64,000 nt of DNA, from assembly GCF_010500615.1 (NCBI RefSeq), contig NZ_JAAGNX010000003.1, positions 682,001-746,000 of the forward strand. The letters run 5' to 3'. This document shows positions 30,724 through 36,065 of the stretch, one piece after another (the first letter of the stretch is position 1; every line of letters begins with the position of its first letter). The notes below the pieces were generated by a model. It saw only the letters and a program-made list of their open reading frames with translations. It was not told where the DNA came from and did not search any database. The translations under genes and the position numbers were made by a program. Origin of the DNA: Oceanipulchritudo coccoides (GTDB lineage Bacteria; Verrucomicrobiota; Verrucomicrobiia; Opitutales; Oceanipulchritudinaceae).

Positions 30724-33666
<2,943 letters not shown>

Positions 33667-33735: not shown

Positions 33736-34572
33736 ATGCATTACTCAAAATACCACGCGCTCGGAAATGATTACCTTGTCCTAGATCCGAAGGATTGCCC
33801 GGAGCTCCCCTCCGAGAATGACATTCGGACAATCTGCCACCGTAATTTCGGGCTCGGCTCGGATGGCATCCTGTACGGCCCAATAGAAACAGATAATGCG
33901 GATTTCGGGCTGCGCATCCTGAATCCTGACGGGAGCGAAGCCGAGAAAAGCGGCAATGGCCTGCGGATTTTCGCCCGTTACCTGCGCGACACCGGCCGGG
34001 TCACAACAGCATCTTTCACGGTTGAGACGCTGGGCGGCATTGTCTCCTGTGAAGTCAATAAGGATGCCTCCTCCATCACAGTGGAGATGGGTAAAGTGTC
34101 TTTTGAGGCGGCCGTCATCCCGGTTAATGAGATTGAGGGAGAAGTGGTCGACAAGGAAATCGAACTGGAAGGCACGACGTACCGGATGTACGCCGCCACA
34201 ATTGGCAACCCGCACTGCGTCCTGCCAATGGAGGAGATTTCTTCCAAAACAGCTCACACACTCGGCCCGATAATTGAAAACCATCCCCTCTTTCCCAACC
34301 GCACAAATGTCCAGTTTCTCAAGATTATTGATGACCATACGATCCAAATCGAAATTTGGGAACGCGGTGCTGGTTACACGCTGGCCAGCGGAAGCAGCTC
34401 GAGCGCTGCGGGGGCTGTCGCCCGCCGTATGGGCTGCGTTGGGCCTGATATCACTGTTAACATGCCCGGTGGCCAGATCCAGTTGCACATCGATGATGAC
34501 TTTTCTGTGAGGATGACGGGCCCCGCCACACGTGTCGGCTCCTTTGAATTGGACATGGAGGCCTTGGGCTGA
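33736..34572 (+). CDS. dapF: Diaminopimelate epimerase homologue with both catalytic cysteines replaced by serine
   Basis: 278 residues from the ATG at 33736 (the frame stays open upstream but has no DapF homology there). The fold is clear: YHALGNDYLVLD at the N-terminus, NPDGSEAEKSGNGLRIFARY, GNPHCV and IWERGAGYTLASGSSSSAAG. In DapF the first acid/base Cys sits in E-x-C-G-N-G and the second in L-A-C-G-x-G; here they are Ser72 and Ser218. Substrate-contacting Glu209-Arg210 remain, but the usual Glu of GETL is Tyr214. It may be an inactive or re-tasked epimerase, or a serine-based one. No other lysine-pathway gene is near. Confidence 0.85.
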   Translation: MHYSKYHALGNDYLVLDPKDCPELPSENDIRTICHRNFGLGSDGILYGPIETDNADFGLRILNPDGSEAEKSGNGLRIFARYLRDTGRVTTASFTVETLGGIVSCEVNKDASSITVEMGKVSFEAAVIPVNEIEGEVVDKEIELEGTTYRMYAATIGNPHCVLPMEEISSKTAHTLGPIIENHPLFPNRTNVQFLKIIDDHTIQIEIWERGAGYTLASGSSSSAAGAVARRMGCVGPDITVNMPGGQIQLHIDDDFSVRMTGPATRVGSFELDMEALG

Positions 34573-34581
34573 TGCCCGCCC

Positions 34582-35496
34582 TCAGGTCCGAGACAAAACC
34601 AGGCCAAGGGAAAACAGGACACCGGTGATGACGAGCAATCCCGCTGTCATTCCAAGAACGCGCTGATAGGCTGAACGGTCACGCGCGCCGGCGAGCAATT
34701 GTGTAGCTCGAATCATTAACGGAGTGGCCAGCAACACGAGCAGGCAGAACCAGGCTCCACCAGCGAGAGCAAACCACACCGGGACGGCAATGGACAGGGC
34801 GTTAAGAAGCCCGTATTCCCAAAGTCCGAAAGTCCGGCCCAAGCGCACGACCAATGTTCGTTTTCCAGCCTCGCGATCCAGCGGCTCGTCACGCACATTG
34901 TTCACCACGAGCAAATTTGTCGCCAGGGCTCCCGGAAGCAGGCCCGCGAGCCAGGTCCAATAGAGGCCACTGGCCGACGGCAGGACCAGGACAAATGTCC
35001 CGGACTGGACAAACAAGGTGAACCCGGTGGCAATCCAACCAAAGAAAATAAAGACAAAGACATCGCCCCAGCCATTGTAACCAAGCGGATAAGGTCCGCC
35101 GGTGTAAGCCACTCCGCAGACAATCGAGGCGATCCCGATGATCAACAAGGCAGGCCCACCATATGGAACGAGGGCGCATCCCGCGATGAAGGCAATGGCG
35201 AAGACAAGCCACATGCCGTTGCGCATTGCCTTTGGGCGAATCCATCCCGAGGCGACGGCCCGGTCCGGGCCAATCCGGCGCTCATCATCGGCTCCCTGGA
35301 TGAAATCGTAATAATCATTCGCGTAATTTGTGCCGATTTGGATCAAAAGCGCGAAAACCAGGCAGAGCAGCCAGGGAACAAATGCAAACTGACTGGATAA
35401 AAAGGCCAGTGCCCCGCCAATCATTACCGGGACAGCGGCGGCGGGGAGAGTCTTGGGCCGTGCGGCCCATACCCAGTGAAGAAAACTTTTCATCAT
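34582..35496 (-). CDS. menA: 1,4-dihydroxy-2-naphthoate prenyltransferase
   Basis: 304 residues from the ATG at 35496 (a second ATG follows immediately), with a GGGGAC ribosome site about 8 bp upstream. The longer frame starts at TTG and overlaps the pseudopilin gene. Eight or nine membrane helices and the UbiA-family aspartate motifs NYANDYYDFIQGADD and NVRDEPLDREAGKRT are present. WAARPKTLPAA at the start is typical of MenA. It makes demethylmenaquinone, so the organism likely respires with menaquinone. It follows three pseudopilin genes on one apparent transcript. Confidence 0.92.
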   Translation of the reverse strand: MMKSFLHWVWAARPKTLPAAAVPVMIGGALAFLSSQFAFVPWLLCLVFALLIQIGTNYANDYYDFIQGADDERRIGPDRAVASGWIRPKAMRNGMWLVFAIAFIAGCALVPYGGPALLIIGIASIVCGVAYTGGPYPLGYNGWGDVFVFIFFGWIATGFTLFVQSGTFVLVLPSASGLYWTWLAGLLPGALATNLLVVNNVRDEPLDREAGKRTLVVRLGRTFGLWEYGLLNALSIAVPVWFALAGGAWFCLLVLLATPLMIRATQLLAGARDRSAYQRVLGMTAGLLVITGVLFSLGLVLSRT

Positions 35497-35513
35497 ACTG
35501 TCCCCAAAACCAT

Positions 35514-36065
35514 TCACCAAACCTGAAGAATGGCAAATCCCTCCTTCATGTGACTGTCCACGGCATCTGGAAAGAGCCAGGTCATACGTTCCGGCACTTC
35601 ACCCGGTAACCATGAGCCCTTTTTCACTTCAACATGGATTTCGCCCTGGTAGCGCAGTTGCCTTTGCTGGTAATCGCCCTCTACGCCACTTGGAGTATCC
35701 CAAAGCAACCAGTGTGCTCGGTCACGCTTCAACTCCCAAAAGACAGGATCTCCTCCTGTAGAATGTGTACGCATCCGCAAGGTCGAAAGGTTGACAAAAT
35801 CCCCAATCTGCAAGCCCTCGACCTCCAGCCAGGGTAAATTCTGAAAGGGATGGGAAGACCGTTGATCCCAAGCACGTTGGATAGAATCCCGGAGCCCTTC
35901 CATCTCAAGTAAGCGAACTTGTTGAACCCGGCCAGCTGCAAGACTTTCCATAAATCCATGCAGGGCCCGCATTCCGGCAAGGAAAATGAAAGCGGTAACC
36001 GCAAGGGCCACAAGAATCTCCATCCATATCATGCCTGAGACTCCGCCTCTTCGCTCCAGATTCAT
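35514..36065 (-). CDS. Pseudopilin-like protein (GspJ-type)
   Basis: 183 residues. The N-terminus has a prepilin peptidase site: RRGGVSG followed by MIWMEILVALAV, which puts Glu at +5 of the mature helix. The rest is a variable globular region with several tryptophans (WLEVEGLQIGDF, FWELKRDRAHWLLWD) and no known enzyme motif. Size and position as third of three resemble the minor pseudopilin GspJ of type II secretion. It overlaps the preceding gene by 4 nt. Confidence 0.68.
   Translation of the reverse strand: MNLERRGGVSGMIWMEILVALAVTAFIFLAGMRALHGFMESLAAGRVQQVRLLEMEGLRDSIQRAWDQRSSHPFQNLPWLEVEGLQIGDFVNLSTLRMRTHSTGGDPVFWELKRDRAHWLLWDTPSGVEGDYQQRQLRYQGEIHVEVKKGSWLPGEVPERMTWLFPDAVDSHMKEGFAILQVW

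Follow-up and report, generated by a model that had tools for sequence, protein, structure and literature searches.

Locus and gene features

The window, i.e., the whole stretch of DNA that was analysed, comprises 64,000 nucleotides of Oceanipulchritudo coccoides (contig NZ_JAAGNX010000003.1, positions 682,001 to 746,000). It holds a dapF-like gene with an unbroken translation of 278 amino acids (Table 1). The product scores 233.5 bits against TIGR00652 (cut-off 114.65) and 180 bits against PF01678, and a Pfam scan returned DAP_epimerase only. Identity as a glutamate-racemase-type DapF was rejected, as the score against NF038284 (bifunctional DapF/glutamate racemase) is 59 bits, far under the cut-off of 350. 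The neighbouring frames are putA-like and menA, both on the opposite strand. No dap gene was seen adjoining the dapF-like gene, and a promoter and terminator scan around it found none. Elsewhere in the window, a 750-aa frame combines a WecA/MraY-like sugar-phosphate transferase with a LegC-type aminotransferase, and a 586-aa frame beside rho has no NCBIfam match at 1e-10.

The catalytic cysteine pair of canonical DapF is absent from the window protein. An earlier reading of the letters alone (the sequence-only reading) had placed serines at both positions, and the alignment to solved DapFs (motifs EMCGNG and TLACGTG) bears this out for Ser72 and Ser218, both encoded by AGC. Its statement that Glu209-Arg210 is kept holds for all 144 Ser/Ser sequences compared. 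It had also described a Tyr in place of the Glu of GETL; Tyr214 does follow GAG, but the Glu is not invariant among canonical enzymes. Ser/Ser and Cys/Cys in Table 1 and below refer to the residues at positions 72 and 218.

Table 1. Coordinates of genes, frames and active-site codons in the window
Feature	Position	Strand	Remarks
WecA/MraY-like and LegC-type frame, 750 aa	28253-30505	-	
putA-like frame	30724-33666	-	neighbour
dapF-like gene, 278 aa, Ser/Ser subfamily	33736-34572	+	matches to TIGR00652 and PF01678
Asn63, distal DAP ligand, kept	33922-33924	+	144/144 Ser/Ser
Lys71, adjoins Ser72	33946-33948	+	K 138/144, I 6/144 Ser/Ser; M 38/41 Cys/Cys
Ser72, codon AGC	33949-33951	+	first catalytic Cys position
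Asn158, distal DAP ligand, kept	34207-34209	+	144/144 Ser/Ser; N in only 19/41 Cys/Cys
Asn191, distal DAP ligand, kept	34306-34308	+	144/144 Ser/Ser
Glu206	34351-34353	+	E 139/144 Ser/Ser; R 41/41 Cys/Cys
Glu209-Arg210, distal DAP ligands, kept	34360-34365	+	144/144 Ser/Ser, 41/41 Cys/Cys; role from PMC12039745 (excerpt)
Tyr214, subfamily mark	34375-34377	+	Y 143/144, R 1/144 Ser/Ser; E 32, V 5, I 4 of 41 Cys/Cys
Ser218, codon AGC	34387-34389	+	second catalytic Cys position
Ser221	34396-34398	+	S 143/144 Ser/Ser; G 41/41 Cys/Cys
menA frame	34582-35520	-	neighbour
Frame beside rho, 586 aa	38449-40209	+	

Phylogeny and selection

A total of 187 distinct DapF-type sequences was compared: 144 are Ser/Ser, 41 are Cys/Cys and two combine Ser72 with Cys218. 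Codons were read in 65 sequences; position 72 is mostly AGY and position 218 mostly TCN. In an unrooted tree of 102 rows a branch with support 100/99, present in 100% of 200 bootstrap trees, sets all 59 Ser/Ser rows apart. The 41 Cys/Cys rows are likewise all found to one side of a branch (support 99/95), and a long branch carries the two Ser/Cys rows. In close Ser/Ser pairs dN/dS is 0.04-0.28 (24 computable of 25 listed); the Ser/Ser form is under purifying selection.

The serines are accompanied by further changes, namely Ile78 and Gln193 (each in 144 of 144 Ser/Ser sequences), together with Lys71, Glu206, Tyr214 and Ser221. In Anabaena DapF the backbone NH of the Gly at the position of Ser221 contacts the second catalytic sulfur (PMC12039745, excerpt). 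A comparison of columns between the 144 Ser/Ser and the 41 Cys/Cys sequences gave no conserved replacement cysteine that is new to the Ser/Ser group: Cys34 also occurs in 29 of the 41 Cys/Cys enzymes, and 12 of the 144 Ser/Ser sequences lack Cys161. A replacement active-site cysteine was thus rejected, no Cys column being both conserved throughout and specific to the group. The window protein is best filed as a member of an old, separate and conserved Ser/Ser sister subfamily of DapF. It is not called a canonical DapF because the defining feature, the catalytic cysteine pair, is absent.

Ligand residues and fold

The residues by which Anabaena DapF binds DAP-like inhibitors, as listed in the available text of PMC12039745, were mapped onto the window protein by alignment. 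Asn63, Asn74, Asn158, Asn191, Glu209, Arg210 and Gly219 are present in all 144 Ser/Ser sequences, and Gly73 in 143. Residue 220 is Ser in 136 and Thr in 8 of them (Thr in 37 of the 41 canonical sequences), and a hydroxyl is therefore retained. Asn11, found in 143 of 144 with one gap, is probably a DAP ligand as well. No residue of the set that recognises the distal L-amino-acid end of DAP is lost, an argument for DAP as the substrate.

The AlphaFold model of the window protein (mean pLDDT 97.2) shows the two-domain fold of DapF, with predicted helices that begin at residues 73 and 219, immediately past each serine. Its best match in the PDB is the inhibitor-bound DapF of the cyanobacterium Anabaena, 9mro (TM 0.93, Z 39.1, rmsd 1.7 over 272 residues), and the nearest solved relatives by sequence are also DapFs, 9mro first. 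The O-ureidoserine racemase 7vdy is nearly as close (Z 37.1 vs 39.1), so that the fold alone cannot settle the substrate. Structures of the proline racemase superfamily reach Z 29.0 at 13-19% identity, under the top DapFs (39.1), and the Pfam scan gave no proline racemase superfamily match for the window protein.

Occurrence of the Ser/Ser form

The order to which the window belongs was surveyed in 132 genomes, 111 of which have a DapF-type match; residues were read in all matches. Ser stands at both positions in 92 of the 111 genomes (in G037 on two fragments). In G015 and G088 the fragment has Ser72 but stops short of position 218, and the fragment of G131 covers neither position. Thirteen genomes are Cys/Cys, G089 shows Cys218 only, and two genomes of family f28 (G125, G034) have a Ser/Cys pair. 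Of the 111 genomes, G064 (f8) alone carries both types, with Cys/Cys and Ser/Ser genes at L052 and L053; contamination could account for its Ser/Ser contig. At L047 and L048, in reduced genomes of f28, the DapF homologues combine Ser with Cys and fall on a long branch.

The phylum was searched in 240 genomes, and residues were read in 38 chosen stretches. Beyond the order, the Ser/Ser form was found in families f52, f58, f77 and f72, in genus g73 of f14, and in the f42 genomes G155 and G300; all remaining stretches that were read are Cys/Cys, two of them from f42. The Ser/Ser sequences at L082 and L083 (G317 and G237; f14, g73) have extra stretches inserted before residue 58, and at L085 (G296, f72) the Gly of the SGNG motif is replaced by Val.

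GTDB contigs were scanned with two short patterns, one containing Ser72 and none containing position 218, which gave at least 573 relatives. Both serines are present in 80 of 80 loci read, these being the best 80. Position 218 lies outside both patterns, so the presence of Ser218 in all 80 is independent of how the loci were chosen, unlike that of Ser72, which one pattern contains. The record titles of the best 80 of the at least 573 relatives include delta-proteobacterial or Desulfobacteraceae labels (12), Planctomycetota (3), Cyanobacteriota (3, Westiellopsis prolifica among them), Chloroflexota (3), Lentisphaeria/Victivallales (2), and one each of Armatimonadota, Thermoleophilia, Atribacteria, SAR324 and Kiritimatiellota. 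The Ser/Ser records thus bear labels of about ten phyla, and MAG labels can be wrong.

Lysine and diaminopimelate pathway

In the window genome (G000; 3.52 Mb, 99.42% complete) TIGR00652 matches this gene only, and PF01678 adds no further one. A hidden second dapF, for which the sequence-only reading had suggested a search, was dismissed by these two models. The Ddh/DapL route, also named there, is present in one half: DapL is found with 568.5 bits, and Ddh (TIGR01921) has no match in the genome. The product of DapL is LL-DAP, which still requires an epimerase. With DapL present and no Ddh, a DAP epimerase is expected, and the window gene is the only candidate seen; the suggestion that meso-DAP must come from elsewhere found no source in the DAP_epimerase-family and Ddh searches of this genome. 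A LysA-like gene (G000:C2:394953-396176, minus strand; L057:3954-5177) scores 245 bits, under the TIGR01048 cut-off of 297.9, and its product reads EPGT where other LysAs read EPGR or EPGK. This low-scoring LysA type recurs in the order.

Thirty-one Ser/Ser genomes were reached via named loci. A single TIGR00652 match was found in 23 of them (records without stated completeness), and the other eight have further DapF-type genes; the copy was read in seven of these (all except G366) and is Cys/Cys. The Ser/Ser protein could have another role in such genomes. G365, a chromosome record of 5.57 Mb, combines the Ser/Ser form with DapL and one TIGR00652 match. The plant-type DapL model matched nine of 24 named Ser/Ser genomes (one under the cut-off) and none of the ten Ser/Ser genomes of families f17 and f20, so that many Ser/Ser genomes must make LL-DAP by another route.

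Genes for dapA and dapB lie near the Ser/Ser dapF on the same strand in four of the 80 named loci (the best 80 of at least 573 relatives). The gene order is dapF-dapA-dapB in L127, L138 and L174; in L121 it is dapB-dapA-dapF, with dapA broken into two frames. Several loci in these data have a Cys/Cys copy close to dapL, dapA or lysA, which indicates that such links are detectable here. A Chloroflexi record (L188:4624-6840, plus strand) contains a 739-aa open frame in which LysA (residues 31-443, 330.4 bits) is followed by a Ser/Ser DapF (458-726, 222.7 bits), both over their cut-offs, and the roughly 90 bases before the DapF part contain no in-frame ATG, GTG or TTG. A DapF fused to LysA is hard to reconcile with an unrelated substrate.

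Neighbouring genes were scanned with Pfam and NCBIfam for 105 of 241 coding-like frames, in 49 of the 80 named loci; the remaining 31 loci, mostly Opitutae, were only clustered and compared. The clustering was dominated by close relatives and antisense open frames. MoeA frames recur near Ser/Ser loci (6 of 105), with two MoeA-like clusters mostly in Desulfobacteraceae-type loci; this is read as shared descent.

Replacement by Ddh or Cys/Cys DapF

Ddh was searched in 11 genomes of the window's family and in 29 chosen genomes, with G000 in both sets; three of the 21 DapF-less genomes of the order fall in neither. The GTDB families f17 and f20 together comprise 17 genomes, ten with Ser/Ser DapF and seven without DapF. 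Six of these seven have Ddh with 438-465 bits (cut-off 180.6), namely G038, G053, G082 and G103 (f20, g40) and G016 and G115 (f17). Ddh is also over the cut-off in two of the ten Ser/Ser genomes, both f17 (Fisher p 0.015 for the replacement, relatedness ignored). The seventh DapF-less genome, G081 (f17, one contig, 2.3 Mb), has no match to DapF, Ddh, DapL or LysA. A Cys-type DapF is present in all eight f8 genomes and in seven of eight f24 genomes (one read at position 218 only). Genes that replace one another usually perform the same job, and the replacement by Ddh or by Cys-type DapF is the strongest indirect evidence that the Ser/Ser form does so. An apparent joint loss of DapL and DapF in the Ddh genomes was set aside as uninterpretable, the TIGR03542 DapL being missing from the Ser/Ser sisters in f17 and f20 too; these sisters may use another route to LL-DAP.

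The replacement pattern has exceptions: eleven genomes (0.8-1.3 Mb) lack both DapF and Ddh and may make no DAP at all. Several other small genomes (about 0.8-1.1 Mb) keep the Ser/Ser DapF; those of 0.8-1.0 Mb, e.g., G006, G025, G043, G059, G077 and G120, have no second DapF-type match.

Proposed function

Catalysis by cofactor-free racemases of the DapF fold is accounted for by a thiol/thiolate pair, the pKa of which is adjusted in a dry site. As an acid/base partner, serine is far weaker than cysteine. From the comparisons above we infer DAP as the substrate, its epimerisation as the reaction and the two serines as the acid/base pair. That the window protein epimerises DAP, by whatever residues, is likely; that it does so as a member of an old and separate subfamily with Ser72 and Ser218 as the acid/base pair is somewhat less certain but still probable. 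The Ser/Ser form, often the sole such enzyme found in a genome, probably does the same job by different chemistry. The usual 1,1-proton transfer would turn LL-DAP supplied by DapL into the meso-DAP needed for peptidoglycan and lysine; one serine, acting as an alkoxide-like base, would take the proton from one face of the proximal alpha-carbon and the other would give a proton on the opposite face. The logic of DapF, with a closed dry site, helix dipoles and a zwitterionic substrate, would be retained. Lys71, Glu206, Tyr214, Ser220 and Ser221, together with the helix N-termini after the serines, might make a serine basic enough in the closed, dry site.

Comparison with known enzymes

Canonical DapF (TIGR00652; Anabaena 9MRO, Arabidopsis 3EJX, Haemophilus influenzae 1GQZ) resembles the window protein in fold, length, DAP ligands, helix N-termini and pathway setting. 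It differs in the Cys/Cys pair and, typically, in Met71 (here Lys), Arg206 (Glu), Glu214 (Tyr), Gly221 (Ser), Cys78 (Ile) and Asn/Glu193 (Gln). The PDB entries 2q9h and 2q9j are the C73S and C217S forms of H. influenzae DapF. Another point of comparison is the aspartate/glutamate racemase EcL-DER, which we take to have a glutamate-racemase-like fold. It resembles the window protein in that Thr replaces one catalytic Cys; unlike the window protein it keeps the other Cys, and it is reported to be irreversible for Asp (PMC8142540, excerpt).

Precedents with a single serine exist in the proline racemase superfamily. Ser-Cys and Ser-Thr types, then of unknown function, were recorded there (PMC4364671, excerpt). 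According to a figure legend in the available text of PMC4113996, the body of which differs in protein names and in one cysteine number, 4HypE with Ser93/Cys236 epimerises and t3HypD with Ser90/Thr256 dehydrates. The 4-hydroxyproline 2-epimerase B9JQV3 (Avi_0518) resembles the window protein in its related two-domain fold and in having a Ser as an acid/base residue, a role that is putative in the window protein. Its own epimerase activity was measured, but it belongs to the proline racemase superfamily, acts on another substrate and has Cys as its second residue (PMC4113996, excerpt). The trans-3-hydroxyproline dehydratase B9K4G4, like the window protein, has no Cys at either position, and its Ser is called catalytic, but it dehydrates, holds its Thr in a non-catalytic orientation and belongs to a different family (PMC4113996, excerpt).

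The histidine racemases HisR of F. nucleatum and CntK have a DapF-like fold, and HisR was first predicted to be a DapF; unlike the window protein, both are Cys/Cys and act on histidine (PMC11602996, excerpt). The HisR variants C67S and C209S are strongly impaired (same source), so that a plain swap of Cys for Ser would be insufficient and compensation is to be sought in the co-varying set. In Chlamydia DapF, Cys-to-Ala mutants lose the complementing glutamate racemase function (PMC5885031, excerpt).

Alternative explanations

Proton transfer in a DAP epimerase might instead be carried out by Tyr214, by a Lys71-Ser72 pair or by His160; the serines would then do no more than position water or substrate. 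This is rather unlikely. Tyr214 and Ser221 (143/144 each), Glu206 (139/144) and Lys71 (138/144) do change together with the cysteines, but Lys71 is Ile in six Ser/Ser sequences and Tyr214 is Arg in one, so that neither is strictly needed, and with Cys34 and Cys161 excluded the group has no conserved new cysteine to take over. We also regard it as unlikely that the protein is an epimerase, racemase or dehydratase of another amino acid, comparable to HisR/CntK or the hydroxyproline enzymes, with meso-DAP made by an unrecognised enzyme. DapF-like proteins have been misassigned before, as with F. nucleatum HisR (PMC11602996, excerpt), and serine-bearing relatives of proline racemase include a dehydratase (PMC4113996, excerpt); the structural closeness of O-ureidoserine racemase and the eight of 31 genomes with another DapF-type gene point the same way. 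Against this, the distal ligands Asn63, Asn158, Asn191, Glu209 and Arg210 are invariant in 144 of 144 sequences, the gene gives way to Ddh in f17/f20 and to Cys/Cys DapF in f8/f24, and one LysA fusion, four dapA and dapB loci and the single DapF-type match in 23 of 31 genomes tie it to the DAP pathway.

It is very improbable that the gene encodes a non-catalytic relic or a regulatory pseudoenzyme, or that its serines stem from an error in sequencing or assembly. Both usual acid/base residues are gone, and the Cys-to-Ser mutants of HisR are strongly impaired (PMC11602996, excerpt), but the 144 distinct sequences form one tree group with low dN/dS and near-invariant ligands, and the gene is kept in small genomes. 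The relic proposed in the sequence-only reading is accordingly unsupported, given the low dN/dS, the near-invariant active site and the retention in several genomes of about 0.8-1.1 Mb. Sequencing error, pseudogene and stop-codon recoding were rejected on the same dN/dS, on the codons read and on the spread of Ser/Ser over many genomes (144 of 187 distinct sequences, the window's included). The intact Cys/Cys DapF that was looked for in related strains is absent from the window's own family, where 10 of 10 genomes with compared residues are Ser/Ser. That reading had also allowed for a known Ser-tolerant subgroup; a large Ser/Ser subgroup does exist, but no description of a DapF with a Ser/Ser pair was found in the literature searched, a search that left most subscription papers outside. 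Of its three options, the best supported is an enzyme with different chemistry but an unchanged substrate; a change of substrate is less likely, and the relic finds no support.

Direct use of LL-DAP by an altered LysA and MurE, which would make the epimerase step dispensable, is hardly credible. The LysA-like protein of the window genome, with 245 bits against a cut-off of 297.9 and EPGT for EPGR or EPGK, would suit it. However, the low-scoring LysA type also occurs with Cys/Cys DapF in f8 (G007, G032, G048, G078), the f14 genome G013 combines Ser/Ser DapF with a LysA of 448.2 bits, over the cut-off, and DapF would be expected to be lost rather than conserved. A linked change of LysA was rejected, LysA type and DapF type being unlinked.

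Implications and diaminopimelate in Opitutae

A natural, conserved Ser/Ser branch offers a direct test of the need for a thiol and of how a serine becomes basic enough. The balance leans towards the view that the thiol pair is replaceable by the co-evolved set Lys71/Glu206/Tyr214/Ser221, and that bacteria with this form should resist thiol-directed DapF inhibitors; aziridino-DAP, for example, should fail to alkylate the Ser/Ser form. The branch also bears on annotation, as the short motifs of the subfamily recover at least 573 relatives, of which the best 80 were read and are all Ser/Ser.

The finding further bears on claims of Opitutae without DAP and peptidoglycan. Coraliomargarita akajimensis is said to lack muramic acid and DAP (PMC3035286, excerpt). 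In Opitutus terrae PB90-1, DAP was detected by GC/MS at 4 nmol per mg, compared with 63 nmol in E. coli in an earlier study (PMC5303756, excerpt). The available text of the same source reports DAP by GC/MS in three Lacunisphaera strains, without giving the isomer, and no DL-DAP by TLC of Lacunisphaera strains. The physiology agrees with a working, possibly weak DAP pathway and is no proof of meso-DAP. Genome G222, taken as O. terrae PB90-1, has a single DapF-type match, which is Ser/Ser.
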